Positions 4,869-64,000 of a stretch of DNA of 64,000 nt are shown in pieces. The stretch's first letter is position 1. Each line of letters starts with the position of its first letter. The position numbers and the translations under genes are program-made. The notes beneath the pieces were generated by a model. The model worked only from the letters and a program-made list of their open reading frames with translations. It was not told the DNA's origin and searched no databases. This DNA is from Bacteroidia bacterium (GTDB taxonomy: Bacteria > Bacteroidota > Bacteroidia > B-17B0 > Aurantibacillaceae). Location of the stretch: positions 1-64,000 of the forward strand of contig JAGNIU010000002.1 of the NCBI GenBank assembly GCA_018000995.1, written 5' to 3'.

Positions 4869-4874
4869 TTTTTC

Positions 4875-5138
4875 TTAATGTGTAAAAACATAATGCGTAA
4901 CATTAATGAGGGAAAATAAAGAGAGAATTGCTGAAACCCAAATTATCCAATTACCTTTACTTTTTGTGTAATAATAGACGCATAGTCCAACATGAGTGAT
5001 AACAATAGGTGCGCCAAAAATCATTATTGTAAAAGGTCCCGCAATCCAATCACCAGCCGGATAAGTATAAATAATTACATAACAAGTAAAACTTAAAAGT
5101 GCCAGGTATATTGCAGCAACTGATTTTAAATTTTCCAT
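4875..5138 (-). CDS. small three-helix membrane protein, unknown
   Basis: 87 residues, almost entirely three hydrophobic segments (about residues 7-26, 33-56 and 66-84), starting at ATG. It lies 3 bp after the uvrA stop and 6 bp before the PagL-like gene, so it is probably co-transcribed with both. No family is recognised. The tight spacing and regular transmembrane pattern support a real gene. Confidence 0.6.
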   Translation of the reverse strand: MENLKSVAAIYLALLSFTCYVIIYTYPAGDWIAGPFTIMIFGAPIVITHVGLCVYYYTKSKGNWIIWVSAILSLFSLINVTHYVFTH

Positions 5139-5141
5139 TAA

Positions 5142-8030: not shown

Positions 8031-8031
8031 T

Positions 8032-9240: not shown

Positions 9241-10300
9241 TTTTCTTAATCTTTGTGTTTATATACAAAGCTAAGAATACGAGGATTATGTATGAAATAC
9301 TTATCCAAAAAAGCGTGTTGGAATATGTTAAAACGAGCTTATATGCAAGAAATACACCTATTAATGATAGTAATAGATACAAAATGGCAATGCGTTTCTC
9401 GGTAACTCCTTTAAAAAATAAGTGGTGTGTGGTATGATCTTTCCCGCCAATAAAAGGCGAATTGCCAATTGCTATACGATTTATGACTACTGTAATGGTA
9501 TCGACCAATGGCAATAAAAACACTAAACCAACAATCCCAAAATGATATAAATACTCGTTGGTATCAATTAAATTTTGAGGGAAATTATTCCAACAAAAAT
9601 GAATAGCTACAGAACCCATAAATACACCTAAAAACTGAGAGCCGGTATCTCCCATAAACATTTTTGAGGGGTGAAAATTATAAATTAAAAAGCCGGTTAA
9701 TGAAGCCAAAACACCAATAGATAAAATAGAAAACGGGTGCAACATTTGTTTTAATGATATGTTGATGAGAATAAAAAATACACATACCGAAATAGAGACA
9801 ATGGTAGTGATGCCATCCATGTTATCGAGCATATTAATAGAGTTCATGATACCCACAATCCAAATAATGGTGATTAGATAATTGAAAAACTCGTTCTCAA
9901 ATATGCGTATGTAAGTACCTGTAAACAGTAGAACCAGTGCACAAGTAATTTGTGTCAAGAATTTTAAGAGTGGCTGTGTATTAAAAGCATCATCCGCTAA
10001 GCCCATTAAAAAAGCCATGGTACAAACAGCCAACACGCCTGTTAAACGAATACGGTAAGCAGTATCGAGTGTTTGAATTAAATTAATGAAGATGTACGAC
10101 AACAGGAATACCACAAAAAAAGAAATTCCGCCTAATGAAGGCTTGATGCTTGGGTTCCATCTAATCTGACTGGCTTGTTTACCGCGGGTGCCTAAAGTTT
10201 GTGCGAATTTTAAAAGAATATTATTTATTAATACAGAAAATATGAAACAGATAAAAAAGAATACTGTTAGTACTAAAGGTATATTTTCTAAAAAATTCAA
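9230..10300 (-). CDS. MraY/WecA-family undecaprenyl-phosphate sugar-1-phosphate transferase
   Basis: 356 residues with about ten membrane segments. Family motifs: GLADDAFNTQP (Asp-Asp, about residue 100), NMLDNMDGITT (about 157), HPSKMFMGDTGSQFLG and the histidine-rich loop GKDHTTHHLFFKG. The enzyme transfers a sugar-1-phosphate from a UDP-sugar to undecaprenyl phosphate, starting a surface polysaccharide. The location inside a Wza/Wzc/RfbC operon favours WecA-like initiation over MraY, which normally sits with mur genes. Start is TTG (10298-10300), 2 bp after the rfbC stop; no early ATG exists. It overlaps the transglycosylase by 11 bp. Confidence 0.88.
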   Translation of the reverse strand: MNFLENIPLVLTVFFFICFIFSVLINNILLKFAQTLGTRGKQASQIRWNPSIKPSLGGISFFVVFLLSYIFINLIQTLDTAYRIRLTGVLAVCTMAFLMGLADDAFNTQPLLKFLTQITCALVLLFTGTYIRIFENEFFNYLITIIWIVGIMNSINMLDNMDGITTIVSISVCVFFILINISLKQMLHPFSILSIGVLASLTGFLIYNFHPSKMFMGDTGSQFLGVFMGSVAIHFCWNNFPQNLIDTNEYLYHFGIVGLVFLLPLVDTITVVINRIAIGNSPFIGGKDHTTHHLFFKGVTEKRIAILYLLLSLIGVFLAYKLVLTYSNTLFWISISYIILVFLALYINTKIKKSAQ

Positions 10301-10302
10301 AA

Positions 10303-10845
10303 TTAAAATTGGCTTTTAAAGTCTTTAAAATCTTTGCCGCTAATATCTTTTTCAGATAAAAGCGGATTCTCTACATTCCATTTAATGCCAACGGTGGGGT
10401 CGTTCCATTTAATGCTATCCTCAGATGCTTTATTATAGAAATTAGTACACTTGTATGAAAATATGGTGTTATCCTTTAACGTTAAAAAACCATGTGCAAA
10501 TCCTTCCGGAATGTACATCATCATTTTATTTTCTTCCGTTAACTCTGCTCCAAAAGATTTACCATAAGTAGGTGAATTTTTACGGATATCAACTGCTACA
10601 TCATAAACAGCACCTGTAATTACTCTAACTAATTTACCTTGTGCATAAGGAGGGTTTTGAAAATGCAATCCGCGTAAAACACCTTTATGTGAAAGCGATT
10701 GATTATCCTGAACAAAATTCAGATTTAAACCATTTTGTGTAAATAAATCTTTATTGTAACTCTCGAAAAAATATCCACGTGCATCAGCGAACACTTTTGG
10801 TTTAATTACCCATAAACCTTCAATACCTGTATTAACCAGTTCCAT
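10303..10845 (-). CDS. rfbC: dTDP-4-dehydrorhamnose 3,5-epimerase
   Basis: 180 residues, the full family length. RfbC/RmlC epimerises C3 and C5 of dTDP-4-keto-6-deoxyglucose on the way to dTDP-L-rhamnose. Visible family signatures are GYFFESYN, VQDNQSLSHKGVLRGLHFQ (catalytic His61), GKLVRVITGAVYDVAVDIR and YIPEGFAHGFLTL. The start ATG overlaps the stop of the Wzc-like gene by 1 bp (TAATG), implying coupling. rfbA, rfbB and rfbD are not in the window, so the sugar route needs partners elsewhere. Confidence 0.95.
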   Translation of the reverse strand: MELVNTGIEGLWVIKPKVFADARGYFFESYNKDLFTQNGLNLNFVQDNQSLSHKGVLRGLHFQNPPYAQGKLVRVITGAVYDVAVDIRKNSPTYGKSFGAELTEENKMMMYIPEGFAHGFLTLKDNTIFSYKCTNFYNKASEDSIKWNDPTVGIKWNVENPLLSEKDISGKDFKDFKSQF

Positions 10846-13286
10846 TATTTTCTTGAAAAAATGTTTTTACGTTTTTCTATTTTTGCTTCGTCAGTATAAT
10901 AACCGGAACCATAACCGTATCCGTAACCATAGCCGTAACCATAGCCGTAATTATAACCGTAAGCACCTTTCTTTACATCAACACCATTTAAAACAATTGA
11001 TAAATGCTGAATATTGTTTTCGTTTTTTAAACGATCAATAATCTGAGCGAAATTTTTCTTTGAATATTCTGCTCTAAAAACGTAAATAGGATAATCGGCA
11101 TGTTGCAGGGTTAATAAACCATCCGTTACTAATCCTACCGGCGGATTATCCACAACTACATAATCAAATTTTGTTTTTAAGTATTCTAATACTTCCATCA
11201 ACTTCGGACCCATAATTAATTCTGAAGGATTTGGAGGAATTGGTCCTGCTGTAATAAATTTTAATTGCGGGATAGAGCTATCATTTAAACATTCATCAAC
11301 AGTAGTTATACTAGTTAAAATAGTACTCATCCCTTTATCATTTGAAACTTCAAACCCGCGGTGGATTTTTGGTTTTCGCATGTCTAAGTCGATAATAACG
11401 GCCTTTTTACCACTGTAAGCTAATATACCGGCAATATTTAGGGCTACGAATGTTTTTCCTTCTCCTGAGATGGTAGAAGTAATAGAAACGATTTTTGAAC
11501 CGGGGGTATTATTAATAAATTGCAAGTTAGTTCGTATAGCACGAAACGCTTCTGTAATTAATGCTTTCGGGTTTTTATCAACGATAAGTTGAGACAGTGG
11601 CATGTTGCTGTCGAACTTCGGCACTATACCTAATGTGTTAATGTTTGCGCTGGTGTGACGAATAATTTCGTTTAGGGAAGAGATTTTATCGTGCATAAAG
11701 TATCTGATAAATATCAAAAGTAAACTGACCAATAAAAAACCTACTGTAGCTACAGATAAGGCATTTCTTCTGCTTGGAGAAACGACTAACCCGTCACCTG
11801 CTGCCTTCTCTAAAATGGTATTTTGTGAAACGAAACCTGCTTTTGCAATAGAGTATTCTGTTTTCTTCTCAAGCAACATGGTGTAATATTTTTCGCTGAT
11901 AGAATACACCCTCATTAAGCGCGCGTGCTCTACTTCATCTTCAGGATTCTGTTCGAATTTTGATTTATAATCTACAGATTTCTCAAGTAAATTTTTGTAC
12001 TTAGTTTTATACTTTAGGCGAACTGCATCTAAACTTCTGATTAGTAAACTACGTTGATTTTCTAATTGAAAATTAATTTGCTTGATGTTTTCTGAACTCG
12101 GCGTTACCTGATATAATAAATTTTCCTTTTCACTTAACAGCTTCTGTATATTCTGAATAATATCCTTAATCATGTTCTCATCTTCTGAACCTGCCAATAA
12201 TGAAACTAACTGATATACATCTATGTTTTTATTCTTTGTAATATTAGCTTGTATTTCATCCAATATTTTTTCTTCCATCTCCACTTTAAGAAGTTGGTCT
12301 TCCAAGTTAGTGTAACGCATTAAATTAGAATTTAACACTACATCCTTATCATTAATATTTCTGTCTTTTTTAAAGGATTGCAAATTTCTCTCCGCTCCCT
12401 TTAAATCTTCAAATACTATAGATAACTGCCCGTCAATAAACTCAATGATTTTCTCAGAACTTTCACTTTTACGCTCTACGTCATAAAGAATATACTCAGC
12501 AGTAATAGCATTAACGATATCTTTAGATTTTCTAGGATTAATATCACTTACGGTAACCAAAATTGTTTTGGCTAAATCACTTAACATCTTAATATCAACT
12601 TTCCCTTGTAACTCTGAAGTAACAACGTCAACGTTCTTTATTACAAAATAAAATTTACTGCCTTTTAGAGCATTTGACAGTGTTGTTTTTTCGAAGGCGG
12701 GATTAAAAAATACAGTAACATCAAAATCAGCACTTCTTAAAACTGAATTGGTAAAAAACTTAACGGTTTTAACTACACCACCAAGAGTGTAAGATATGTC
12801 GCCACTCGCTAAATCAGGTGAAAATGCAATATATAATTTTTGATTATAGAGGTCTTCATTTTTAAGGTCTACCTTTATTTTGTAAGGCGAGTTAATATAT
12901 AATTCGTTACTCTTAAAAACACCCTCATTAAAATAACTAACTTCAATTTCCAATCGCGTAACAACACGTTCAATAAATTTTTTTGAACGCAATAACTCAA
13001 TTGCTTCTGCTATCTTATTATTATTGGCTTCAATTTTATTTAACTCTAAAACTTTATTAGCCTCATTGTTATCATTAACCTGAAGTTTTGATTTAGATTC
13101 GTAAATAGGCTGACTGTATCGTAAATAAAGGAATGCACAGCTAAAAGAAATTATAAAGAAAAGTACAATAAAGTATTTGCTTTTGAACATGAGGTACAAA
13201 AACAAACTAAAGTCGATAGTACTACTGAATTTCTCAACCCGTTCTTTGTAGCGGTCTACTTCACTATCAATTTTTGCGTTTAGCAT
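10845..13286 (-). CDS. Wzc-like polysaccharide co-polymerase with BY-kinase domain
   Basis: 813 residues. A Wzz-type N-terminal domain spans two membrane segments (about residues 34-52 and 512-530) with a coiled-coil periplasmic part between them. The C-terminal bacterial tyrosine kinase has Walker A STISGEGKTFVALN (about residue 604), Walker A' VIIDLDMRKPKIH (about 632) and Walker B VVVDNPPVG (about 713). The tail is exceptionally regular: 11 tyrosines in 22 residues, mostly Tyr-Gly pairs. The enzyme controls polymerisation and export of surface polysaccharide by cycles of tail autophosphorylation. It starts directly after the Wza-like gene and overlaps rfbC by 1 bp. Confidence 0.94.
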   Translation of the reverse strand: MLNAKIDSEVDRYKERVEKFSSTIDFSLFLYLMFKSKYFIVLFFIISFSCAFLYLRYSQPIYESKSKLQVNDNNEANKVLELNKIEANNNKIAEAIELLRSKKFIERVVTRLEIEVSYFNEGVFKSNELYINSPYKIKVDLKNEDLYNQKLYIAFSPDLASGDISYTLGGVVKTVKFFTNSVLRSADFDVTVFFNPAFEKTTLSNALKGSKFYFVIKNVDVVTSELQGKVDIKMLSDLAKTILVTVSDINPRKSKDIVNAITAEYILYDVERKSESSEKIIEFIDGQLSIVFEDLKGAERNLQSFKKDRNINDKDVVLNSNLMRYTNLEDQLLKVEMEEKILDEIQANITKNKNIDVYQLVSLLAGSEDENMIKDIIQNIQKLLSEKENLLYQVTPSSENIKQINFQLENQRSLLIRSLDAVRLKYKTKYKNLLEKSVDYKSKFEQNPEDEVEHARLMRVYSISEKYYTMLLEKKTEYSIAKAGFVSQNTILEKAAGDGLVVSPSRRNALSVATVGFLLVSLLLIFIRYFMHDKISSLNEIIRHTSANINTLGIVPKFDSNMPLSQLIVDKNPKALITEAFRAIRTNLQFINNTPGSKIVSITSTISGEGKTFVALNIAGILAYSGKKAVIIDLDMRKPKIHRGFEVSNDKGMSTILTSITTVDECLNDSSIPQLKFITAGPIPPNPSELIMGPKLMEVLEYLKTKFDYVVVDNPPVGLVTDGLLTLQHADYPIYVFRAEYSKKNFAQIIDRLKNENNIQHLSIVLNGVDVKKGAYGYNYGYGYGYGYGYGYGSGYYTDEAKIEKRKNIFSRK
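10896..10961 (-). repeat. Tyr-Gly coding microsatellite in the kinase tail
   Basis: A degenerate hexanucleotide tract coding for alternating Tyr and Gly (11 Tyr in 22 codons). A 12-base unit (ccatagccgtaa on the plus strand) recurs. Changes in unit number would stay in frame and alter the number of phosphorylatable tyrosines. Confidence 0.85.
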
Positions 13287-21964: not shown

Positions 21965-22957
21965 TTACAAACGAGGGCAGTTTCTTACTTCTTTTAAATT
22001 TTTCTTTCCTGCTAAATAAGTAAATGATATTTCAAATGCTCCTCGTGTTTTAGAAGCTGTTTTTAAAGTAGAGGTGTTAAAATCATAACCAAACTTAAAA
22101 ATGTAATTGTCTTTTCTAAATCCTGCATAAACAATACTCGCATCTTTTGCACGGTAAGTGAATCCTGCTAGCAGGAAAAACTTATCATTTTTAAAATAAT
22201 AACCTGCATCGAAAGCATAAGTTTGTTCGAAGGCTGTTCCTTGACTCATTACTAATACTTTCGGGATCACGTATAATAACTCGCTGATATTTACACGTAC
22301 ACCTCCATGTCCGTAAATACGAATTGGTAAATGGTTGGCCTGATCGAAAAATGTTTCTTTTGGTTGTGTTAAGTTAAAACCTGATACACCAATAAATGGA
22401 TTAAGCCGGGATTGTTGTTTTGAAAAGAAATACAATAAACCTGCATTTAACTGAGGCAATATTTGAGATTGACGTGTGAATTTTTCGTTAGTAGGTAATC
22501 CAGTATCAAAACTACCACCATTAGTTGATGTGTATTGATTATCGAAAGTGTACAACTTATACTCCACCTGTTTTTGAGTAAAGCCGCCTTGTAAACCGAA
22601 TGACAATTGATGAAACTTTTTCTTGTCTAACGGCACAGTGTAAGCAGCGGATAACATTCCTTGAAATACATTATAGTTACCAATACCTGCACGCATTTCT
22701 ATTATCTGAATACCAAATCCCCACTTACCCTTAGGCATATCAGCACTAATTAATGCTGTATTGTAAGGTTTATATGCAACCGAATTCCATTGATTACGAT
22801 ATTGTGCATGCACTCTAAATTTAGCATCAATAACACCAGTCATAGCCGGATTTAAAAACAACGGACCGCAATCGTATAACGATAAGTGAAAATCCTGTGC
22901 TTTACTTTTTCCAATAAAGACAACAGAAATAACTATGTATAAAAATATCTTTTTCAT
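21965..22957 (-). CDS. PorP/SprF family outer-membrane protein, copy 2
   Basis: 330 residues. A signal peptide is followed by the family opening HLSLYDCGPLFLNPAMTG and RVHAQYRNQWNSVAYKPYNT, then barrel strands and family-typical AYTVPLDKKKFHQLSFGLQGG. SprF of Flavobacterium johnsoniae is needed for secretion or anchoring of the type B CTD adhesin SprB, encoded beside it. Here the type B cargo gene lies immediately upstream (6 bp gap) and a PorE-like gene downstream (3 bp gap). The direct inference is a dedicated outer-membrane partner for the 1255-residue cargo. Confidence 0.92.
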   Translation of the reverse strand: MKKIFLYIVISVVFIGKSKAQDFHLSLYDCGPLFLNPAMTGVIDAKFRVHAQYRNQWNSVAYKPYNTALISADMPKGKWGFGIQIIEMRAGIGNYNVFQGMLSAAYTVPLDKKKFHQLSFGLQGGFTQKQVEYKLYTFDNQYTSTNGGSFDTGLPTNEKFTRQSQILPQLNAGLLYFFSKQQSRLNPFIGVSGFNLTQPKETFFDQANHLPIRIYGHGGVRVNISELLYVIPKVLVMSQGTAFEQTYAFDAGYYFKNDKFFLLAGFTYRAKDASIVYAGFRKDNYIFKFGYDFNTSTLKTASKTRGAFEISFTYLAGKKNLKEVRNCPRL

Positions 22958-22963
22958 TTTCTG

Positions 22964-25900
22964 TTATCTTAATATAGTGACGTCGCCTGTTTTTCGAACC
23001 GACTTATTATTAAACATATCTACATCTAAAACCCAGACATAAACACCAAGCGGCGCATCTTGTCCTTTGTAGGTACCGTCCCATCCTATTTTCTGGTCTG
23101 TAGTTTCAAAAACTAATTCGCCCCAACTATTATATAGTCTGAAAATCATTTTTTCAAAAGGTCCGCCTTTTACAAATAACAAATCATTGTTTCCGTCTTT
23201 ATTTGGAGTAAATGCTGTAGGTACTAAAGGCAATAAGGTAACCTCAATTGATTTTGTAATAGAATCTCTACAGCCGTTATTATCAATTACAGTAAGCGTG
23301 ATATAGTAATTACCTTGATTGTTATAAAAGTGAGTTGGATTTTGTCCACTCGCACTTATTGAATCACCAAAATTCCAAAACCAATTAACAATTGAATTAC
23401 TTGGGGTTGAGAAATCTGAAAAATAAACTGTTTCTAATGCAAGTGTTGGATTGTTTGTCATTCCAAATTCAGCAGTAGGTTCAGGATTTACAGTTACCGG
23501 TTTAGAAATTGAAGATTGACAACCTTTATCAGAAGTAACAATTAAATTAACGTTATATAAACCGGCAGCTGTATAAGTATGTATTGGGAATTGATTAGTT
23601 GCTAACCCACCATCAGCAAAATTCCAATTCCAACTTACAACTGTGTCAGGACTGTTTACAAATGAAAGATCAGTAAATGTTGTTGGTAATGATTGGCAAG
23701 CGTTACTAAAATTAAAATCAGCAACAGGTAAACTATTAATAGTAATAGGTTTTTGAATGGAATCGATACAACCATTGGCTCCTGTAACAACATAAGTAAC
23801 AGTATATGTATTTGCTAAAGTATAAGTGTGTACAGGATTACCTGTGTTAATTGCAGTGAAACCATCTCCAAAATCCCACGTTTGAAAAACAATACCCGGG
23901 CTTGATAAATCAGAAAAATTAACCTGACTATTTACACAAGAATTGCCATTCGTAAAGTTTGCAGTAGGTGAATTCTTAAATGTTATTTTTAAAGTGTCCT
24001 TAACCGCATTACATCCTTTATTATTTGTCGAAGCCAAAGTAAATGTTACAGAACCTGTTAGAATATCGGAACCACTAGGACTATAACTTCCGTTTAAAGT
24101 AGTATTGTTAGGTGTAAAAGTTCCTGTTCCGCTGGATGCCCACTGACCTGTTCCGGTAAATCCTGTAATCACACCATTTAGAAGTACATTGGCGTTATTA
24201 CATACTGAAGTGTTAATGCCGGCATTAACATAAGGTAATTTTAAAATATCAATACGGATTGTATCAGTTTCAGGGATCGGACAAATTCCTTGTGCAGAAA
24301 TAACAAAAATAACATAACCTTGAATGGTATCATTAACACTCATGGTGTAAGTTGGATTTATAACATTGATATTACTGAATGCGCCTGTTCCGGAAATAGC
24401 TGTCCACGTAGGTGTAGTGGCTGCGCTTTGGAAAGTAGCAGAACCATTCAAATTAATAATAAATGCGCTTGCACAAATTGTATCGTTTGGTCCGGCAGTT
24501 ACAACAGGCTTCGGGAAAATATTAATATTAAGAGTGTTGTTTACCGCTGCACATAAACCATTATTTGTTGAAGTTAGCGTTAATGTAACAACGCCTCCAC
24601 TTGCTAATTCAGCAGCGCTTAAAACGTAATTTGTATTAAATGTTGTATCAGTAGGTGTAAAATAACCGCCGCCATTTGTTGACCAAACACCAGTACCAAT
24701 TCCACCTGTTATTGTTGCTCCTGAAACGGCAACTGTTGGTGTGTTAGTACAAACATTTATATCAGGTGGGGTAGAAACTACAGGAGGGTTTGTAAAATTA
24801 ATAATGACTTGATCATTTGCTGCCACGCAACCACCAATCGATGCTAAGGTTAAAGTAGCAGATCCTGCGGAAGCATCTCCAGGTGAAGGCGTATAGGTTG
24901 TTACCATAGCCGTTGGCGGGAAGAAAATACCTGTTCCGCCACTCCATGTTTGTCCGGGTGCACCCGTAACAACTCCTGTTAGGTTTATAGGCGTTAAATT
25001 ATTTTTACATCTTGTTATTACTGAAGGTGTAGCTGTTACAGAAGGGCCTTGCACAATATTTAAAGTAACCACATCACTAATGTTTCTACAATTACCGGTT
25101 GAGGTTAAAGTGAATGTTAAACTGCTTTGCAATAATTGTAATGGCGTAAGAGTATAAACACCACTAACTGTTGTTATAGAGGAAGTGTAAGCGCTTAACG
25201 ACCCTGTTGGGGTTGTCCAATATCCTGTTATCGCACCACCTGAAATTGTTCCGGTGAGTGCCACTGTATTTGTTGCGCCTGCACAAACTGTAAAGTCAGG
25301 ACCAGCAGTAATATTAACCTTACGACGGAAAGTAGACATATAATGGAATAAACCACCTGTACCAACATCTCCATTAATAATACCAAGAGCAAATACATCT
25401 GTACTGTTTCTGATTTCGTGAGCTCCAATAGGAATTACACCAATCGCAAATTGTTTTTGCGCACCCATCCATCCCGGAGGACCAGGCACTACGGAAAAAT
25501 CGGCAGCGGTTAATAAAGTTGCATTACCATTAATGGTAAAATTACCTTCATTGCCCGCTCTACATAATACGTTTAAGAGGAAAGGTTGAGTGTTATTACG
25601 TGAAAACACAACGGTATCTGAACCTGCACACTCTAACGGTGGTAATATTGCTCCGCCCGATTCGCAACCATAACCACTGGTTTGCCAAACGTAAACCGGT
25701 TTACTAGCCTGAACAGAAGTTAAAGGATTTACAATTGGATATTGTTTCGTGTCTCCTTTATTCAAAGTATAAGTTGTTGGAGTTCCATCGTCAATTGTAA
25801 TTTGTGTAAAGTTATCGGTTGCAACAACGAAAATACTTTCTGCCGATAAAGGAAACATAAATCCTTTATTAGCAATATAAGAATCACCAACAACATCAAC

Positions 25901-26731
25901 AGGAACAATTTGATCACCAATTAAATCATAACAACCTCCACCGGCCGTTCTAACAGAGTCATCAGCAACTGTAACTGAAATAGGATGGTTTGATACAACG
26001 ATCGTACCACCTAAATTTTGTCCGGGATTAACTGTATTTGTGTTAATAGTTACATTTTCGACTGTATAAACATCACCTGTATTCATCCCAACACTATAGG
26101 TGATGTTTGCCAAATGACCAACAACGTTGCAACGAGGTGTAATCCAAACAACAGTGCCTGGCATGGTAGCAACAATGTTAATCTGTTGCTTTGGTTTTGT
26201 ATTAATACCATCACCATTTAAATCGCCTGTAATGTTTTGGTTATTCCAGGTGTTTTGAAAAGGACAAACAAACTCAGTACCTAAACCGTTTTGTCCTTTT
26301 AATGAAAATGTTTCCGGATTATTAAAACCTGGAGCTCTTGTAACAACGTCATAAACTGCTGTTATTTTGTTCGACGAGGTTATTTTTAATCCATACGGTA
26401 AAACTGCGTTTGCAGGGCGTGACTCTAAAGAATCGTAAGCAAAATTAGTTGTTCCTGCTGCTGCATCTCTCCAAAAAGTATAATCAAAAGCACGTGATGC
26501 AGGGATCGTAAATGTAGTATCGTATTTGTTTGGTAAAATAGCGGCCGGTTGTCGTATACGCACAACAGTACCTGCGTTACCTGCAATATGAACTTTAACA
26601 GCATCTTTCCATGTGTGATCCGGTGTTACCCAAGGAGCAGCGAACCAGAAAACAGTATCTATCTGCGAAAACACTGAAGTGAATTTCATCATGCAGAATA
26701 AAACAAATACTATTACTTTAACTTTTTTCAT
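22964..26731 (-). CDS. T9SS type B surface protein: IgGFc-binding-like N-domain, Ig-like repeats, PKD, CHU_C (copy 2)
   Basis: 1255 residues with a signal peptide. Residues about 25-470 resemble the IgGFc-binding N-terminal domain family (FWFAAPWVTPDH; GLKITSSNKITAVYDV; QIVPVDVVGDSYI; VYVWQTSGYGCESGGAILPP). Then come five Ig-like repeats (about 475-900), each with a leading Cys and a TGxWxxxxG turn. Three PKD domains follow (about 905-1155; QTWDFGDGF, WNWNFADGG, WFWNFGDS). The end is a type B sorting domain (gliding motility-associated; TAFTPNKDGNNDLLFVKGG, then GWDGTYKGQDAPLGVYVW). The protein is predicted to be displayed on the cell surface and to stick to surfaces, cells or glycans. Its PorP/SprF partner is 6 bp downstream. 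It is a close architectural duplicate of the protein at 27804-31247. Confidence 0.9.
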   Translation of the reverse strand: MKKVKVIVFVLFCMMKFTSVFSQIDTVFWFAAPWVTPDHTWKDAVKVHIAGNAGTVVRIRQPAAILPNKYDTTFTIPASRAFDYTFWRDAAAGTTNFAYDSLESRPANAVLPYGLKITSSNKITAVYDVVTRAPGFNNPETFSLKGQNGLGTEFVCPFQNTWNNQNITGDLNGDGINTKPKQQINIVATMPGTVVWITPRCNVVGHLANITYSVGMNTGDVYTVENVTINTNTVNPGQNLGGTIVVSNHPISVTVADDSVRTAGGGCYDLIGDQIVPVDVVGDSYIANKGFMFPLSAESIFVVATDNFTQITIDDGTPTTYTLNKGDTKQYPIVNPLTSVQASKPVYVWQTSGYGCESGGAILPPLECAGSDTVVFSRNNTQPFLLNVLCRAGNEGNFTINGNATLLTAADFSVVPGPPGWMGAQKQFAIGVIPIGAHEIRNSTDVFALGIINGDVGTGGLFHYMSTFRRKVNITAGPDFTVCAGATNTVALTGTISGGAITGYWTTPTGSLSAYTSSITTVSGVYTLTPLQLLQSSLTFTLTSTGNCRNISDVVTLNIVQGPSVTATPSVITRCKNNLTPINLTGVVTGAPGQTWSGGTGIFFPPTAMVTTYTPSPGDASAGSATLTLASIGGCVAANDQVIINFTNPPVVSTPPDINVCTNTPTVAVSGATITGGIGTGVWSTNGGGYFTPTDTTFNTNYVLSAAELASGGVVTLTLTSTNNGLCAAVNNTLNINIFPKPVVTAGPNDTICASAFIINLNGSATFQSAATTPTWTAISGTGAFSNINVINPTYTMSVNDTIQGYVIFVISAQGICPIPETDTIRIDILKLPYVNAGINTSVCNNANVLLNGVITGFTGTGQWASSGTGTFTPNNTTLNGSYSPSGSDILTGSVTFTLASTNNKGCNAVKDTLKITFKNSPTANFTNGNSCVNSQVNFSDLSSPGIVFQTWDFGDGFTAINTGNPVHTYTLANTYTVTYVVTGANGCIDSIQKPITINSLPVADFNFSNACQSLPTTFTDLSFVNSPDTVVSWNWNFADGGLATNQFPIHTYTAAGLYNVNLIVTSDKGCQSSISKPVTVNPEPTAEFGMTNNPTLALETVYFSDFSTPSNSIVNWFWNFGDSISASGQNPTHFYNNQGNYYITLTVIDNNGCRDSITKSIEVTLLPLVPTAFTPNKDGNNDLLFVKGGPFEKMIFRLYNSWGELVFETTDQKIGWDGTYKGQDAPLGVYVWVLDVDMFNNKSVRKTGDVTILR

Positions 26732-26748
26732 TTTATATTATATATAAA

Positions 26749-27804
26749 TTAATCTTTTTTAGGTTCTGAAGTGTTTTCAGGTGTTTTGTTTTCCTCTTTT
26801 TTTTCAGGACTTACTTCTTCAGTTTTCAATTCAGTAGGTGTTGTTTTTTTATTTTTTAAACTTTGCTTAATGCTGTTGTCTTTAATTTTAAATTGCTCTT
26901 CATCTGCATTCACTACTTTCTTCTTAATGAAATTATAGTTCAAACTAATTTCGTGACTACCTTGATTATATTTTCTTATTGTAGACATAGAGTAGTCGTA
27001 GGCATAAGCGATGTTTAGCTTTTTAATAACTGTAACGCCCATCATAAAACTTACAGCATCATCGGTACGGTAGTTGCCGCCAATCCAAACCATATCTTTA
27101 AACGACAATTTCATAGTGTATTCTAACTGAGCAGGAACCGGCTCGTTATACTTTAATAATATTGAAGGCTGAAGAGCAAAATCTTTACTCAATTTAAAAT
27201 TATAACCAATAACTGAATAATAATGCGGCGTTAATCTGCCGGTAGGATTTTTCCATCTGATTTTGTTATTCAACATGTTCATGTCAGATAAACCAAAGAA
27301 AAATCTCTCTCCGTAGAAATAAATTCCGGCATTAGCATCTAGTACGTTTGCGTTAAGCGTATTTCCTGTTAAGTAATCGTCGCCTTTATCATATGCGTTT
27401 ACATCATACAATCTAACCGTGTATTGTTTTACTCCACCAGATAATCCAAAACTTAACCTTGTTTTTTTTGTAACCTTAACGTTATAAGCAAAAGTTACAT
27501 AACCTGTGTTTGTGGATATTAATCCTGTTTTATCTGATACAATCATTCCTCCAACCGCAACATTTTTCGCTTTTTTAAGTGGCCCGTGTAACGAGATTAA
27601 ATAAGTTTTTGGTGCGCCCTCAAAACCTACCCACTGATTACGGTAATTAATATTAGCCTGAGCGTAAGGCTTAGAACCAACTACTGCCGGATTATAAGCG
27701 TAACTGTTTAATAAATAGTTTGTATAAAGGGATTGCTGTTGAGCTTTTCCGAAAAACGAAAATGCAAAACAAATAACAACAGCTATTTTAAAATTCTTAT
27801 TCAT
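26749..27804 (-). CDS. PorP/SprF family outer-membrane protein, copy 1, with charged C-terminal tail
   Basis: 351 residues. The signal peptide ends FGKAQQQ, followed by the family signature LYTNYLLNSYAYNPAVVGS and ANINYRNQWVGFEGAPKTY, then barrel strands to about residue 290 (SHEISLNYNF). Unlike copy 2 it carries a further 60 or so residues rich in Lys, Glu, Pro and Thr with no strand pattern. The gene overlaps the upstream type B cargo gene by 1 bp and precedes the second cargo gene by 17 bp. It is probably the dedicated translocon-associated partner of the 1147-residue cargo. The tail could contact peptidoglycan or other T9SS parts; this is only inference. Confidence 0.92.
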   Translation of the reverse strand: MNKNFKIAVVICFAFSFFGKAQQQSLYTNYLLNSYAYNPAVVGSKPYAQANINYRNQWVGFEGAPKTYLISLHGPLKKAKNVAVGGMIVSDKTGLISTNTGYVTFAYNVKVTKKTRLSFGLSGGVKQYTVRLYDVNAYDKGDDYLTGNTLNANVLDANAGIYFYGERFFFGLSDMNMLNNKIRWKNPTGRLTPHYYSVIGYNFKLSKDFALQPSILLKYNEPVPAQLEYTMKLSFKDMVWIGGNYRTDDAVSFMMGVTVIKKLNIAYAYDYSMSTIRKYNQGSHEISLNYNFIKKKVVNADEEQFKIKDNSIKQSLKNKKTTPTELKTEEVSPEKKEENKTPENTSEPKKD

Positions 27805-30800
27805 TACTTCATTAACAATAGAGTTCCTTTAAAAATATTTTCGTTTTCTTTCCGGTTAGGATCGTTGAGGTTGATGATAAAATAATAGGAGGCTACAGGT
27901 AAAGCATCACCTTTATAGGTTCCGTCCCATGCAATATCATAACCAGTAGAATGGAATATTCTTAACCCCCACCGATTATATATCTCAATTTCTGCTTTAG
28001 GGTAAAAAGTATTTATAAAATTCAAATTCCATATATCATTTTTCCCATCTCCATTCGGCGAAATCGCATTCGGAATTAACTCAGTAATTTCATTCTTCAC
28101 CGTTAATATTTTTACGTATGATTTTGCAGAATCGGAACAACCAAATTGATCTTGCACTACTAAAAGAACCGTATAAGTTCCGTTTGCGTAATAAACATTA
28201 TTAGGATTTTGAATTGTACTGGTAGTAGCACCCGAATTATTGAAATCAAAATTCCAATACCAACTTACGGCATTCTTTGAAGTATCTAAAAACACAACAT
28301 TAGAACCAATATTAAATCCGCCATTATTAGTGAATACAAATCCTGCTTCCGGACGAGGGGTAATTGTTATTGGTTTACTTAAAGTGTCAGTACATCCTTT
28401 TTTACTGGTTACAATGTGTGTAATTGTATATGTACCAGGGAAATTAAATAATTGTGAAGGATTTTGTAAAGAAGAAATTCCTGTTGTACCAAAACTCCAA
28501 TAATAACTTCCTATAGTATCAGGGAAAGCAATGTTAGAGCTATCTTTGAAATTAATTTGTAAAGCTGAGCCTGAACAAAGGCGACTATAACTCCAATACG
28601 TATTTGGTAAATTAAATACAGTGATAGGTTTCTGAATTGTATCATAACAATTGAAAGAGTTTCGCACTATTAAGGTTGCAGTGTAAGCACCTGCAACGGA
28701 ATAGGTGTGTAAAGGATTTATAGCAGTAGAAGTGCCGCCATCACCAAAAGCCCAATTCCATCCTGCTAATGCACCAATATTAGGATTAGAAGCATCTGTA
28801 AACTGTGTGTTTTTATTTAAACAAACTGTAGTAGATGCAAAATTTGCACTTGGCTTATCTCTAAAGTCAATTCTAACCTGGTCAGTTACTGCTAAACAAT
28901 TACCATTGTTTGTTGATGTTAAAGTAAGAATAACAAAACCTACTGTAAATTCGCTTGTGGCAGGAGTGTAACTTGTACTTAATACAGTTGTAGTTGGTGA
29001 AAATACGCCGGCTCCTCCGCTCCACACACCTGTTGTTGCGCCACCACTTACAATACCGTTTAATGCAGTTACATAATTATTTTTACAAATACTTAAATCA
29101 ACACCAGCGTTTACATTTGGTGAAGGCGTGAAATTAACTTTAATACTATCTGTAACAGGTAAACAGTTTCCATTATTAGTTGATGATAAATAAATAGTAA
29201 TTCCCGATGATGCTAAATCGGATGAACTTGGTAAATAGTTTGTATTTAATTGAACGTTGTTCGGATTAAAAATTCCGGTTCCTGTTGTTGTCCATTTACC
29301 TGTTAAACTTGCTCCACTTACAGTTCCTGTTAATGCAATTGATGCGTTATTAATACATCTTGTAATAGTTGTTGGTCCTGCATTTACTGCCGGTGGTTTT
29401 GTAAATGTAACAAGCATAGTATCGGTTTCAGCTCTACATAAACCATTATTGGTTGACGTTAAAACCAATTTCACCTGACCTACTGCTGTATCTGCACTTG
29501 ATGTAAAATATTGCGGATTAAAAATTGTTGTTGTTGGTGAAAAAACTCCAGTTCCGGTTGTTGACCAAGAACCTGTATTGGTTGCGCTCACTACGTTTCC
29601 ATTTAAACTAACAGTTGCATTGTTACCACATAAAACTTGATCGAAAGACGCGTTAACAATTGGAGCCGGATTTACATGTAGCGAAATTGAACCAACGCTT
29701 GAAGGACATTGTCCTGTTGAAGTTAAACTGATTACAATATTCGTATCCAAATTACTTGGAACATAAGTGTTAGTTAAAGCTACGGTACCTCCGGCAAACG
29801 AACCAAATCCGGTTGTTGTCCATGCCCCGGTTATATTGCCTCCACCAACAACTCCATTTAAAGAAAATGTTGAGTTAGCACAAGTTGTTGCCGATAAAGG
29901 GCCGGCAATTGCAAAAGGATAAGAAGCCCATTCTGAATGATAAGCATAAGTACTACCATTGTTGTTTGAACCTTGATGAGTTCCAAAACCGTATATATCT
30001 CCTGTATTTGAAAGAATATTATATGAACCAAGAGGGATTTGAGAAAGCGGATAATAAATTTTTGCTCCGACAACTGTTCCACCTGTGCCTGGAACAACTG
30101 TAAATGCACTTGCAGGAACCGGCTGAGAAACTGAATTACTTAATAAAGTGAAGTTACCTTGATAACCTGTTCTTGTAAATACATTTATTGACAGGGAATC
30201 ATTTGTTGTTCTTGTAAATGAAGTTGAATATGTACCTGCACAATAAAAATGCGGAACCTGCGCACCACTTAATTTAGATCCATGAGCACTAACATGAAGA
30301 ACATAAACAGGTTTGGTTGATTTAATATAAGTTAAAGCTTGAGTTGCACTTGCACTATACGTTTCGCCCGTGTTAATTAAAGTTTGAACTGTAGATGTGC
30401 CATTATATATGGTAAGACTGGTTGAGTTAACTGAAGCTAAAATAAAATATTTATCATTTCCTGATTGGCTTTTTGCAATAACAAAATCATTGCCTGCATA
30501 ACTTGAATTAGTAATTTGATCAGCAACTGTACTATTAGATCCGCCATTTAATAAATTAGAAGAAGATACTGTAATAGCTACGGGTTTATTGGCAGAGATA
30601 ATTGTTCCTCCTAATTTAGTAGGAGCTAATGTAGTTGTATCCTGACAACTAAAAGTTTCGCCGGCATTTAAAACAACTATAAACGAAACATCTTTTGCGT
30701 GTCCGATAATATTTGCTCGGGGTGTTATTAAAATGGAAGTTAAGTTTTGCGTAGCTACTATATCAATCGCTGATGCTGAACGTGGATTTGTTGTTGGTGT

Positions 30801-31247
30801 TGGCATTGCTGTACGCCAAGCGTTTTGAAAAGGAGTATAGAAATCTGTACCAATTGCTTTTCTCCCCTTAAGACTTATCATTTCTTTATGAGTTGGCGAT
30901 TTAATAGTGTAAACAATCGAAACACTAGTGCTGGTACTGATATAAATTCCGCGGGGTAAAACTGAATTGCTTGGTGTGCTTTCAACAGCTGCAACAAATG
31001 AAGTTAAATCAATTGAGTCGACAGAAAAAGCTGGAATGGCTTTTGAAATTGGAACAAAAGTACCATTGGCGGGTTGGCGCAAGTACACGTTACTTGCAGC
31101 ACCATAGGTAGTAATGTACATCTTGATTGGACTTTGTCCCAAACTAGAGGAGATATCAGGAGCTACAAACCAAAAAGACGTATCTATTTGTGCGTCAATT
31201 TTTAAGAGTCCAATAAAAAATAAAAAAAGAAAGTATAAACGCTTCAT
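27804..31247 (-). CDS. T9SS type B surface protein: IgGFc-binding-like N-domain, Ig-like repeats, PKD, CHU_C (copy 1)
   Basis: 1147 residues with a signal peptide. The N-terminal domain (about residues 20-450) matches copy 2 in order and motifs (DTSFWFVAPDISS; LPRGIYISTSTSVSIVYTI; GTDFYTPFQNAWR; PVYVLHVSAHGSKLSGAQVP), the IgGFc-binding-like pattern. Four Ig-like repeats follow (about 450-790; WTTTGTGIFNPN type), then three PKD domains (WNWAFGDGG, YYWSFGTTG, WYWNFDFNN) and a type B sorting domain (IPNAISPNGDGKNDIWNLNF, AWDGTYKGDALPVASYYF). The first gene of the cargo/PorP locus. Predicted to be exported by T9SS and displayed on the surface, possibly for adhesion or gliding; no enzymatic motif is visible. 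Confidence 0.9.
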   Translation of the reverse strand: MKRLYFLFLFFIGLLKIDAQIDTSFWFVAPDISSSLGQSPIKMYITTYGAASNVYLRQPANGTFVPISKAIPAFSVDSIDLTSFVAAVESTPSNSVLPRGIYISTSTSVSIVYTIKSPTHKEMISLKGRKAIGTDFYTPFQNAWRTAMPTPTTNPRSASAIDIVATQNLTSILITPRANIIGHAKDVSFIVVLNAGETFSCQDTTTLAPTKLGGTIISANKPVAITVSSSNLLNGGSNSTVADQITNSSYAGNDFVIAKSQSGNDKYFILASVNSTSLTIYNGTSTVQTLINTGETYSASATQALTYIKSTKPVYVLHVSAHGSKLSGAQVPHFYCAGTYSTSFTRTTNDSLSINVFTRTGYQGNFTLLSNSVSQPVPASAFTVVPGTGGTVVGAKIYYPLSQIPLGSYNILSNTGDIYGFGTHQGSNNNGSTYAYHSEWASYPFAIAGPLSATTCANSTFSLNGVVGGGNITGAWTTTGFGSFAGGTVALTNTYVPSNLDTNIVISLTSTGQCPSSVGSISLHVNPAPIVNASFDQVLCGNNATVSLNGNVVSATNTGSWSTTGTGVFSPTTTIFNPQYFTSSADTAVGQVKLVLTSTNNGLCRAETDTMLVTFTKPPAVNAGPTTITRCINNASIALTGTVSGASLTGKWTTTGTGIFNPNNVQLNTNYLPSSSDLASSGITIYLSSTNNGNCLPVTDSIKVNFTPSPNVNAGVDLSICKNNYVTALNGIVSGGATTGVWSGGAGVFSPTTTVLSTSYTPATSEFTVGFVILTLTSTNNGNCLAVTDQVRIDFRDKPSANFASTTVCLNKNTQFTDASNPNIGALAGWNWAFGDGGTSTAINPLHTYSVAGAYTATLIVRNSFNCYDTIQKPITVFNLPNTYWSYSRLCSGSALQINFKDSSNIAFPDTIGSYYWSFGTTGISSLQNPSQLFNFPGTYTITHIVTSKKGCTDTLSKPITITPRPEAGFVFTNNGGFNIGSNVVFLDTSKNAVSWYWNFDFNNSGATTSTIQNPNNVYYANGTYTVLLVVQDQFGCSDSAKSYVKILTVKNEITELIPNAISPNGDGKNDIWNLNFINTFYPKAEIEIYNRWGLRIFHSTGYDIAWDGTYKGDALPVASYYFIINLNDPNRKENENIFKGTLLLMK

Positions 31248-59063: not shown

Positions 59064-59330
59064 AATTTTTTTAAAAAACTTCAAACTCTTTTTGTAGGCC
59101 ACAACCTTCTAAATTCGAATAAATTATTCTCAAAAAAAGAAAGATTTAACAAAACCGTTAGTTGAATTAACAAGCTTTCTAAAAATCTAACTAAAGTGAT
59201 TTACTCATCAAATCGCACAATTAACTCATTACCAAACATATATATGTTAAATTAGTCGAGAAAATACCTATTTTAGTCTAATAAAAATGGCGGTTTTACT
59301 AAAATCATTTAGATTTAGTAAGCAAATTTT
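59064..59330. other. AT-rich spacer upstream of the giant repeat gene
   Basis: No ORF. It contains a perfect 14-bp palindrome AACATATATATGTT (59235-59248) and an inverted repeat ATTTTAGT/ACTAAAAT (59270-59277 and 59298-59305), which could be regulator sites. No exact TAnnTTTG -7 motif is present on the plus strand; TAGATTTA near 59310 is a weak match. Confidence 0.5.
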
Positions 59331-62300
59331 GTGAGAGTAATCACTTATACCCAATTTACCTTTCCAAATAAGATATTTCTTGTTCTAATTTGCTGTCTCT
59401 TTTTTCTAAAATCCAACACTTTACAATCTCAATGCCAGGTTTCAAATGCCGGCACTAGCCAAACTTTATGTATTGGAACTAATGCGTTGATGGCAGCAAA
59501 CACCGCAACAGGTGGCGGAATTGGAAGATGGACTTTAGTTTCAGGAACAGGTGTGATTACAAATTCTCTTATTCCTAATACAACTATTACAGGTTTAGCA
59601 GTAGGAACAAATGTCTTTTCGTGGACCATCACTAACGGAACATGTACTCCATCTGCATCAAATGTTACCATTACAACACGACCACTTCCAACTGTAGCTA
59701 ACGCCGGACCAAATCAAAATATTTGTGTTACAGTCGGTAGTGCCTTGCTGGCAGGCAATAATCCTATCAATGGAACCGGTTTATGGGTAAAAATTTCAGG
59801 CCCCGGAACAATAACCACTCCAACAAATCCAGCATCAACTATTACAGGACTAACGGTCGGCACCACTGTATTAACTTGGTCTATTAGTAATTCACCGTGT
59901 ACATCTTCAACGGCCAACATGACCATCACGATACGGCCTGCCCCTACGGCGGCAAATGCCGGAGTAAGTCAAACACTTTGTGCAACAACAGGTACTGCCA
60001 CTGCAACTTTAAATGGTAATAACCCTACTTCAGGAACAGGTATATGGGTGAAAGTTTCAGGCTCAGGAACAATAACAAATCCGCTTGTAAGAAATACAAC
60101 TGTTACAGGTTTAACACCAGGATTAACAGTACTAACTTGGTCAATAAGTAATCCTCCATGCGCTTCTTCTGTTTCTAATATGACTATTACTACCAATGGG
60201 ATGACATCGACCGCTCTTGCCGGACCTGATCAAACTGTGTGTGTAAGTTCGAGTGCAACAATGGCAGCCAATACACCTACCGCCGGAACAGGTCAATGGT
60301 TTTTAATCGGTGGGTCAGGAACAATTGTTTCGCCAAATAGTCCAACTTCCGTTATTACAGGATTGGGTGTTGGGAACAATACTTTTAGGTGGCGTATAAC
60401 CAACCCACCCTGCGCTACACGTCTAGATAATATTATTATTGTTGGAAGAGCAGTGCCTTCCATTGCTAATGCCGGCGTTGACCAAACCGTTTGTGTTAGT
60501 ACAGGATTCACTACACTTGCCGGTAATACACCAACTGCAGGGGTTGGACGCTGGATAAAAGTTTCTGGGCCGGGCACAATTACAAATTCTCTTACTGCAA
60601 ACTCAACTTTAACCGGACTAACGGTCGGGACAACTGTACTTACCTGGTCTATCTCAAACTTACCGTGTACCAGTTCAGTAGATAATGTTACAATAACAAC
60701 GAATCCTCTTCCATCAATAGCAGCAGCAGGAGTTGATCAAACTGTTTGTGTAAGTTCAAGCGCAACTATGGCAGCTAACACTCCTACTGCGGGTTCCGGA
60801 CTTTGGACTTTAGTTAGTGGTGCAGGAACAATAACTACACCTACTAGTCCCGTCACAACCATTACAGGTTTAGGAGTTGGGAATAATACTTTCCGATGGA
60901 CCATTTCTAATCCTCCTTGTACTGCAACTTTTGATAATATAATTATTGTTGGGAGAGCTGTGCCTTCCATTGCTAATGCCGGAGTTGACCAAACTATTTG
61001 TGTTAGCACAGGATCAACTACACTTGCCGGTAATACCCCAACTGCAGGTATTGGAGCTTGGGTAAAAGTATCAGGGCCAGGTACAATTACAAATTCACTT
61101 TCGCCAACATCAACATTAACCGGACTAACGGTTGGGACAACTGTACTCACTTGGTCTATCTCAAACTTACCTTGTACAACTTCGGTTGATAACGTTACTA
61201 TAACAACGAATGCTTTACCATCCATAGCAGCAGCCGGAGTTGATCAAACTGTTTGCGTAAGTTCGAGTGCTACTATGGCAGCTAACACTCCTACTGCGGG
61301 TTCCGGACTTTGGACTTTAATTAGTGGTGCGGGAACAATAACAACGCCTAACAGTCCTGTTACAACCATTACAGGTTTGGGAGTTGGGAATAATACTTTC
61401 CGATGGACTATTTCAAATCCACCTTGTACTGCAACTTTTGATAATATAATTATTGTTGGAAGAGCTGTGCCTTCCATTGCTAGTGCAGGTTCAAATCAAA
61501 CCATTTGTATTTCGTCGCCAACAACAACAATGTTAGCAAACACAGCAACCGTTGGCATTGGAACATGGTCGTTAGTTTCGGGAACCGGGATTATAACAAA
61601 TTCATTATCTCCAACAACATCAATTACCGGACTTGCAGTTGGTACAAATGTTTTTGCGTGGACAATTGGAAATGCTCCTTGTGCTGCTTCAACTTCCACA
61701 GTATCTATAACTGTAAGCGATGTTCCTACAATCGCAAACGCAGGAACAAATCAAACGCTTTGTATTTCTTCACCAACAACAACTATGAATGCTAACACAG
61801 CAACGGTTGGCATTGGCACTTGGTCGTTAGTATCAGGTACAGGTGTAATAACAAGTTCATTATCTCCAACAACATCAATTACCGGACTTGCAGTTGGTAC
61901 AAATATTTTTTCTTGGACAATTTCAAATTCACCATGCGCTCCCTCAATTTCAACCGTTGCAATTATTGTGAGTGATGCGCCAACCATTTCTAATGCAGGC
62001 GCAAACCAAACATTGTGTATTAGTAGTCCGAATACATTAATGACGGCCAATTCAGCAACAGTTGGCGTAGGAACTTGGAGTTTGATTTCCGGTTCAGGAA
62101 CAATTACTAATTCACTTTCACCAATAACTTCAATTACTGGATTGGCCATTGGAACTAATGTATTTGCATGGACTATTTCGAATGCACCTTGTTTAGCTTC
62201 TTCATCAACAGTTGCAATAGTTGTAGAAGATGTTCCAACAATTGCAAGTGCTGGATTAAGTCAAACACTCTGTATTACAACACCAACAACAACTATGAAT

Positions 62301-64000
62301 GCAAACTTGGCTACAGTTGGCATTGGCACTTGGTCGCTGGTTTCAGGTACAGGAGTTATTACAAATTCACTTTTACCGACAACATCTATTACAGGACTTG
62401 GTGTTGGTACAAATATTTTTTCGTGGACTATTTCGAATGCGCCTTGTGTTGCATCTACTGCAACAATGGCGATAGTTGTTGAAGATGCTCCAACAATTTC
62501 AAACGCAGGACCAAATCAAACACTATGTATTACCAGTCCAAATACATTTATGACAGCTAATACCGCAACAGTTGGTACTGGAGCTTGGACATTAGTATCG
62601 GGAACAGGGGTCATTTCAAATTCATTATCACCGACTACATCAATAACAGGTTTAGGATTAGGAACAAATATATTTGAGTGGGAAATTTCAAACAATCCTT
62701 GTTCACCATCAACCTCAACTGTAGCTATACTAGTTAACGATGTTCCAACAATAGCAAGTGCGGGATTGAATCAAACTTTATGTATTTCTTCACCCACAGC
62801 AACTATGGCAGCTAATATTCCATTAGTTGGTAATGGTGCGTGGACTTTACTTTCCGGCTCGGGAACAATCACTAACTCTCTATCACCAATAACAACAATT
62901 ACAGGATTAGCCGTTGGTACAAATATTTTTCAGTGGGAAATTTCAAATGCACCATGCGCGCCATCCAATGCAACAGTAGCCATAATTGTAAACGATGTTC
63001 CAACGATATCGAGCGCAGGTTCTAACCAAACATTATGTATTAGTAGTCCGAATACCTTTATGACTGCCAACACAGCAACTATTGGCACTGGAGTTTGGAC
63101 TTTAGTTTCGGGTTCAGGAACAATTACCAATTCATTATCACCAGGAACTAGTGTTACAGGATTAGGTTTAGGAAATAATGTTTTTGCCTGGACCATTTCA
63201 AATGCACCGTGCGCACCATCAAGTTCGAACGTTACGATTAGAGTTAATGATTTTCCAACGGTTGCTGATGCCGGTATTGATCAAACACTTTGCATCTCTA
63301 ATCCAACAACAACTATGTCAGCAAATCCTGCCGTTGTTGGCACCGGAGCTTGGACATTAGTATCAGGAACAGGAATTATTACCAATTCACTTTCTCCAAC
63401 AACATCCATTACAGGTTTAGGACTAGGAAATAATGTTTTTGCTTGGACCATTTCAAATGCACCTTGTCCCGCTTCTGTGGCTACAATAACAATTACTGTA
63501 AATGATATTCCAAGCGTTTCGAATGCTGGTACAAATCAAACATTATGTATTACCAGTCCAAATACATTAATGACCGCTAATACTGCAACAGTAGGAACAG
63601 GAGCTTGGACATTAGTTTCAGGAACAGGGGTCATTTCAAATTCATTATCACCAACAACATCAATAACAGGTTTAGGATTAGGAACAAATATTTTTGAATG
63701 GACCATTTCGAATGCGCCTTGCCTTGCCTCCACTTCTACTATGGCTATTATTGTAAACGATGTTCCAACCGTAGCCAGTGCTGGAACTAATCAAACGTTA
63801 TGTATTTCTTCTCCTACTACCTCAATGAACGCCAATTTTCCTTTTGTAGGAACAGGCGCTTGGACATTAGTATCTGGAACAGGAGTTATTACTAATTCAC
63901 TTTCACCTACAACATCTATTACAGGATTAGGTTTAGGGAATAATGTTTTTGCCTGGACAATTTCAAACGCTCCTTGTCTTGCTTCAGTTGCGAACGTAAC
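59331..64000 (+). CDS. giant secreted tandem-repeat protein, start present, continues past the window
   Basis: At least 1556 residues with no stop before the window end. Start is GTG at 59331: an in-frame TAA lies 12 bp upstream and no ATG precedes the signal peptide (NKIFLVLICCLFFLK, cleavage near LQSQC). The mature protein is 18 tandem Ig-like units of about 85 residues, each with NAGxxQTLC near the start, GxGxWTLVSGTG in the middle and GLxxGTNxFxWTISN and a second Cys near the end. The two Cys per unit could form a disulphide. Similar repeats occur in large T9SS-exported Bacteroidota adhesins. A C-terminal sorting domain is expected beyond the window. No enzymatic motif is seen. Confidence 0.88.
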   Translation, partial: MRVITYTQFTFPNKIFLVLICCLFFLKSNTLQSQCQVSNAGTSQTLCIGTNALMAANTATGGGIGRWTLVSGTGVITNSLIPNTTITGLAVGTNVFSWTITNGTCTPSASNVTITTRPLPTVANAGPNQNICVTVGSALLAGNNPINGTGLWVKISGPGTITTPTNPASTITGLTVGTTVLTWSISNSPCTSSTANMTITIRPAPTAANAGVSQTLCATTGTATATLNGNNPTSGTGIWVKVSGSGTITNPLVRNTTVTGLTPGLTVLTWSISNPPCASSVSNMTITTNGMTSTALAGPDQTVCVSSSATMAANTPTAGTGQWFLIGGSGTIVSPNSPTSVITGLGVGNNTFRWRITNPPCATRLDNIIIVGRAVPSIANAGVDQTVCVSTGFTTLAGNTPTAGVGRWIKVSGPGTITNSLTANSTLTGLTVGTTVLTWSISNLPCTSSVDNVTITTNPLPSIAAAGVDQTVCVSSSATMAANTPTAGSGLWTLVSGAGTITTPTSPVTTITGLGVGNNTFRWTISNPPCTATFDNIIIVGRAVPSIANAGVDQTICVSTGSTTLAGNTPTAGIGAWVKVSGPGTITNSLSPTSTLTGLTVGTTVLTWSISNLPCTTSVDNVTITTNALPSIAAAGVDQTVCVSSSATMAANTPTAGSGLWTLISGAGTITTPNSPVTTITGLGVGNNTFRWTISNPPCTATFDNIIIVGRAVPSIASAGSNQTICISSPTTTMLANTATVGIGTWSLVSGTGIITNSLSPTTSITGLAVGTNVFAWTIGNAPCAASTSTVSITVSDVPTIANAGTNQTLCISSPTTTMNANTATVGIGTWSLVSGTGVITSSLSPTTSITGLAVGTNIFSWTISNSPCAPSISTVAIIVSDAPTISNAGANQTLCISSPNTLMTANSATVGVGTWSLISGSGTITNSLSPITSITGLAIGTNVFAWTISNAPCLASSSTVAIVVEDVPTIASAGLSQTLCITTPTTTMNANLATVGIGTWSLVSGTGVITNSLLPTTSITGLGVGTNIFSWTISNAPCVASTATMAIVVEDAPTISNAGPNQTLCITSPNTFMTANTATVGTGAWTLVSGTGVISNSLSPTTSITGLGLGTNIFEWEISNNPCSPSTSTVAILVNDVPTIASAGLNQTLCISSPTATMAANIPLVGNGAWTLLSGSGTITNSLSPITTITGLAVGTNIFQWEISNAPCAPSNATVAIIVNDVPTISSAGSNQTLCISSPNTFMTANTATIGTGVWTLVSGSGTITNSLSPGTSVTGLGLGNNVFAWTISNAPCAPSSSNVTIRVNDFPTVADAGIDQTLCISNPTTTMSANPAVVGTGAWTLVSGTGIITNSLSPTTSITGLGLGNNVFAWTISNAPCPASVATITITVNDIPSVSNAGTNQTLCITSPNTLMTANTATVGTGAWTLVSGTGVISNSLSPTTSITGLGLGTNIFEWTISNAPCLASTSTMAIIVNDVPTVASAGTNQTLCISSPTTSMNANFPFVGTGAWTLVSGTGVITNSLSPTTSITGLGLGNNVFAWTISNAPCLASVANV
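59442..64000 (+). repeat. tandem 255-bp repeats, 18 units, with higher-order order
   Basis: Unit length is 252-258 bp, settling at exactly 255 bp in the second half. Units 4, 6 and 8 and units 5 and 7 form two alternating types with a 507-bp period. Later units 11/15 and 13/17 match best at 1020 bp (four units). This points to duplication of two- and four-unit blocks. Confidence 0.9.

Follow-up and report, generated by a model that had tools for sequence, protein, structure and literature searches.

Type-B substrates of the type IX secretion system require, and stay bound to, a cognate PorP/SprF carrier (PMC12618676, PMC9143113). SprF, a mobile carrier, depends on a Cys-X-Cys tail that links it to the moving track through a disulfide with GldK (PMC12635249), and it has been proposed that a porE-like neighbour is absent at mobile type-B adhesins and present at static, wall-linked ones (PMC9143113). 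GhpA, another type IX-secreted protein, is a heptamer (reviewed in PMC11205867). The gene described here belongs to the type IX type-B giant surface proteins, and combines a repeat unit like that of the GhpA base with an evolution that proceeds by dimers.

The window that we analysed comprises 64,000 nucleotides, bases 1-64000 of a 239,105-bp contig (contig and window coordinates are the same) from a genome of 3.61 Mb in 77 contigs, and we read the contig on to 90 kb. Translation, unit layout and sorting-domain matches place the 5' part of the gene at 59331..64000 (+). As had been noted before, a GTG frame at 59331 is open as far as the window end. Beyond it the frame runs on to a stop at 72918 on the same contig, with repeats extending to about 72.6 kb, and the gene reaches a CHU_C sorting domain (type-B CTD) at 72664-72915 (+), so that the outcome the earlier note had set against its own reading, an early stop after 64000 with no sorting domain, did not materialize. 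The predicted protein is about 4,500 residues long or more. Its start (59331..59435, +) consists of the GTG and a signal-peptide-like segment (MRVITYTQFTFPNKIFLVLICCLFFLKSNTLQSQ) whose hydrophobic stretch is seen in the translation only. No further in-frame ATG, GTG or TTG lies between 59331 and the end of that stretch, and in a relative (genome G006) the gene likewise has GTG at this position, preceded by a conserved stretch that contains ATCATTTAGATTTA; both observations support GTG as the start. The upstream stretch ACTAAAATCATTTAGATTTA... (59297..59330, +), found conserved in G006 in a by-eye comparison of the two species, is a probable promoter or leader. A search for ATG-started frames only, which the earlier note had expected to miss the gene, would lose the signal peptide.

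The whole gene encodes 52 or more Ig/PKD-like units, each of about 85 residues and nearly all with two cysteines. We could confirm the eighteen units counted earlier in the window: 17 are complete (84-87 aa), and the 18th, from 63780, is cut by the edge. A search of the source genome with the first 209 residues found the unit in the gene at 59331 only. Exactly two cysteines occur in each of the 50 units extracted from the gene and in all 45 of G006, consistent with one disulfide per bead; the last unit of the array lacks the first cysteine. Units 1-8 (59448..61484, +) form a tip-side block in which, by lag and nearest-neighbour comparisons, a dimer has been duplicated at a distance of 507 bp, giving units 5-6 and 7-8. 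This lag dominates the block, as proposed (best lag, identity 0.61), and in units 3-8 the mean identity is 0.77 at lag 2 versus 0.56 at lags 1 and 3. Units 9-18 (61485..64000, +; 85 aa or 255 bp each, unit 18 cut) begin a more homogeneous stalk array, for which a four-unit period of 1020 bp had been suggested as a second level. Identities in these units are 0.714, 0.715 and 0.727 at lags of 255, 510 and 1020 bp, and a permutation test did not place lag 4 above lag 2 in units 9-18 (p 0.22), 1-18 (p 0.95) or 13-29 (p 0.78). We therefore rejected a separate 1020-bp level; the signal is a harmonic of the dimer, and in the window units 13 and 17 contribute most of it. The sequences at 62526 and 63546, described before as nearly identical, are similar (92% over 100 bp, 83% over 255 bp), short of that description. 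The dimer itself, tested as the excess of lag 2 over lags 1 and 3, reaches significance in units 1-18 (p 0.006), in units 13-29 (p 0.0005) and in the array of G006 (p 0.0005), and is not significant in units 9-18 taken alone (p 0.20).

The syntenic, gap-free gene of G006 encodes 46 units versus at least 52 here, and we compared 50 units of the gene with 45 of G006 by nearest neighbour. Towards both ends we found positional counterparts (for example units 2, 3, 30, 41, 42, 44, 50 and 51), with units 2 and 3 of the tip-side block closest to theirs in G006. For the pairs 5/7, 6/8, 20/22, 21/23, 24/26, 25/27, 35/37, 46/48 and 47/49, in contrast, the unit two positions away is a closer match than any G006 counterpart. 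These duplicated units are 84-93% identical with a dS of 0.23-0.47, whereas orthologous units of the two species are about 63-78% identical with a dS of 0.87 or more. Across the stalk repeats, DNA identity reaches 93% in dimer pairs and averages 67-73% by lag. The dN/dS of the duplicated pairs is 0.06-0.16 in all but one, 47/49, where it is 0.57, indicating that the domains are under purifying selection. The block duplication inferred in the earlier note is upheld, with the correction that the block is a unit pair. Its being recent holds in the sense that it followed the split from the nearest sequenced relative, although about a quarter to a third of the synonymous sites already differ in 5/7 and 6/8. 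The most recent tract, with at least 254 bp of exact identity, lies outside the window at an assembly gap. Since pair dS falls below between-species dS and both species show the lag-2 excess, dimer duplication has been repeated and lineage-specific. Variation of repeat number from strain to strain, as had been suggested, is plausible; the difference observed, 46 versus at least 52 units, is between species.

The C-terminus of the protein matches CHU_C (E 8e-24, 84 bits) and TIGR04131 (50.9 bits, cut-off 35). The next gene downstream, at 72915-73802, belongs to the PorP/SprF family (TIGR03519, 216 bits, cut-off 90.6) and overlaps the adhesin stop by 4 bp; it is also kept beside the adhesin in G006, G002 and G001. 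The genome encodes SprA (2413 bits) as well as GldM and GldJ, both of which score above cut-off. Type-B CTD, adjoining PorP/SprF gene and secretion components together agree with the earlier prediction of a secreted giant repeat protein bearing a sorting domain. Genome-wide we counted 46 type-B sorting-domain matches, 44 of them over cut-off, and 14 PorP/SprF proteins over cut-off. The window holds two more type-B sorting-domain proteins, with PKD_4 (21965-26731 and 26749-31247, minus strand; 1255 and 1147 aa), each beside its own PorP/SprF gene. On contig C32 of genome G000, four successive type-B sorting-domain matches lie within 9 kb (3797-12794) in frames of about 964-975 aa, which suggests a tandem family of surface-protein genes.

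The gene after the carrier encodes a PorE-like protein that resembles PorE-type proteins in their propeller part; it also has PKD-domain matches and no OmpA domain. Its C-terminus consists of two repeats that are SPOR-like only below the Pfam cut-off (E 0.005); a Foldseek search with a model of pLDDT 78 gave no significant match for them. The order adhesin, PorP/SprF, PorE-like is common to close relatives, and a GAPDH-like gene upstream of the adhesin is also conserved in G006. Throughout this clade the PorE-like protein carries the two SPOR-like repeats and no OmpA (L010:2-1975, L011:10891-14022, L012:3770-7102). In the more distant congener G007, where a giant gene of comparable kind is present, the PorE-like protein (L030:755-3478) combines a SPOR-like part with an OmpA domain, so the part binding the cell wall has possibly changed between the clade and this congener. 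Downstream of the PorE-like gene (L010:2010-6124) we observed a 317-aa protein without a Pfam match and then a Reg_prop/Y_Y_Y/SpoIIE phosphatase. Both are conserved in G006 and have similar counterparts in G001; they may form part of the same unit.

From this arrangement we consider it probable that the gene encodes a giant surface stalk or adhesin that is exported by type IX secretion, held by its PorP/SprF protein, tied down by the PorE-like protein and adjustable in length by recombination between unit pairs. A static, cell-wall-tied stalk is the most likely role on our analysis, and the adhesin function is a prediction from sequence. The main alternative is a mobile adhesin which, like SprB, would be moved by its PorP/SprF carrier along GldJ/GldK tracks for gliding. 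A giant repetitive type-B protein with an adjoining sprF-like gene is indeed the arrangement known for SprB, and GldJ, GldM and SprA are all encoded in the genome. However, the carrier at 72915-73802 contains no cysteine and so cannot form the SprF-GldK disulfide (PMC12635249), and it adjoins a PorE-like gene, unlike the situation at sprB (PMC9143113). These two features favour the static anchored stalk and make gliding unlikely in our judgement. The argument from the cysteine-free carrier is weakened by the finding that none of the 14 PorP/SprF proteins over cut-off in the genome has a Cys-X-Cys tail, which means that this motif may not mark mobile carriers in this lineage. In five PorP/SprF proteins (L035, L039, L041, L044 and L045) a cysteine lies 4-5 residues before the C-terminal end, so this lineage may link its carriers to the track through cysteines arranged in another way.

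We modelled units 13-14 from an alignment of the window units and obtained an all-beta, PKD/Ig-like fold with a mean pLDDT of 94.5. The window units also match the K319L-like PKD domain PF22352 at 131 bits, above cut-off. Compared with solved structures, the model agrees best with the base of GhpA from Aureispira (Foldseek E 1.3e-10, 35% identity); alignment with VIA-align gave Z 13.8 and an rmsd of 3.3 over 165 residues, compared with about Z 10 for unrelated two-Ig proteins. With phmmer, the GhpA base and CTD were matched at E 1e-57 to 1e-108. All the parts of the protein used as queries fall on GhpA residues of about 4566-5766, and the CTD on 5815-5894. This homology of array and sorting domain to the base and CTD of GhpA raises the idea of a capture filament resembling a grappling hook: the protein, alone or with a hook-bearing partner, would form an oligomeric fibre like that of GhpA and catch cells. 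We regard this as quite improbable, and think equally little of the version in which a GhpA-type fibre module has turned into a self-standing oligomeric capture filament whose length evolves by dimer recombination. No significant match was found to GhpA outside residues 4566-5894, and nothing in the protein resembles the hook/shaft region (residues 1 to about 4560). Further, since related units are common among relatives, GhpA, the closest of the proteins whose structures are solved, need not be the closest overall; the match may only reflect which protein has been solved. Type VI secretion was considered as support for a predatory role and discarded, as VipB, the sheath protein of that system, was not found in the genome. 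A search with PF17541 is uninformative on type VI secretion, having been silent in the controls too.

The array is interrupted, outside the window, by a scaffold gap of 100 N at 68383-68482 that breaks the reading frame, and the total of 52 units is for this reason a lower bound. The array has 35 complete units upstream of the gap, and downstream of it follow a partial unit, 15 units, the last unit and the C-terminal domain. The final 127 bp before the gap recur exactly at 68791-68917, and the 127 bp that follow it recur exactly at 68993-69119. No other exact repeat in the array is as long as these two, the next being 119 bp, and two equal exact overlaps of 127 bp would be what a k=127 de Bruijn assembly leaves at a collapsed repeat. 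The two matching copies are separated by 75 bp (68917/68993), and with an insert of this length both the 255-bp unit and the open frame are regained: the gene then measures 13,588 - 25 = 13,563 bp, or 4,521 codons including the stop. Judging by these sequence matches, the 100 N are best taken as a placeholder that creates a false frame break, and the missing sequence could also be longer than 75 bp by whole 255-bp units. A real frameshift after 68382 is less likely, given the placeholder of 100 N and the fit of 75 bp (or 75 bp plus n x 255) to unit and frame. In annotation the gap would split the gene, and since short-read scaffolding splits such genes by a false frameshift, they may be under-counted in genome surveys. 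That mis-assembly made the repeat number and order, as the gap and its exact 127-bp flanks might suggest, is very improbable, because exact repeats away from the gap stay below 127 bp (the longest is 119 bp) and a k=127 graph would therefore resolve the unit order, and because the relative's contig carries a gap-free array of the same kind, the frame is open across 35 units and dN/dS is low.

For the anchored stalk, the systems of F. johnsoniae and P. gingivalis suggest a route in which Sec would carry the protein to the periplasm and the type IX translocon SprA would move it across the outer membrane. Its own PorP/SprF barrel would then take the C-terminal domain and hold the protein on the surface, and the PorE-like partner would connect this barrel with the cell wall. 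Projecting from the surface, the chain would form a rod of beads, roughly 0.2 micrometre long if extended at about 4 nm per bead. We found no dedicated N-terminal ligand domain, as the array begins directly after the signal-peptide-like segment; ligand binding, if any, may reside in the tip-side units. The end blocks retain their order between species while the middle expands or shrinks by recombination between unit pairs, which is why the array would act as a stalk of adjustable length.

The analysis connects a giant repeat protein from an uncultured Bacteroidota lineage with a defined route of export and anchoring and with a unit of known cryo-EM structure. With GhpA of Aureispira sp. CCB-QB1 (PDB 9FLY, 9FLP and others) it shares the same Ig/PKD-like unit, at 34-35% identity over two units, a homologous C-terminal domain and the status of a type IX secretion substrate (PMC11205867). 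GhpA, however, has about 13 such units near its C-terminus plus about 4,600 other residues, whereas the protein described here consists of at least 52 units and the sorting domain only. Relative to the K319L-like PKD domain (PF22352), it is a bacterial tandem array with two cysteines per unit. SprB of Flavobacterium johnsoniae is likewise a giant repetitive type-B CTD protein beside a PorP/SprF carrier; unlike at SprB, the carrier here lacks the Cys-X-Cys tail and a PorE-like gene comes next, as proposed for non-mobile type-B proteins. In PG1035-PorP-PorE of Porphyromonas gingivalis a type-B protein also sits on a PorP-like barrel with a PorE-like partner and a proposed tie to the cell wall, but the PorE-like protein here differs from P. 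gingivalis PorE in matching the propeller only, with no OmpA and two SPOR-like C-terminal repeats. Finally, the Periscope Proteins (SasG, Rib and Sgo_0707) are also stalks of similar domains in tandem whose number varies by recombination (PMC8201768, PMC9704523); compared with them, the repeats here are mostly 60-85% identical in DNA, are arranged as dimers and belong to a different secretion system. The gene is a clear case of a surface stalk in which the block of duplication is a domain pair, with ordered ends and a middle that expands after species diverge.
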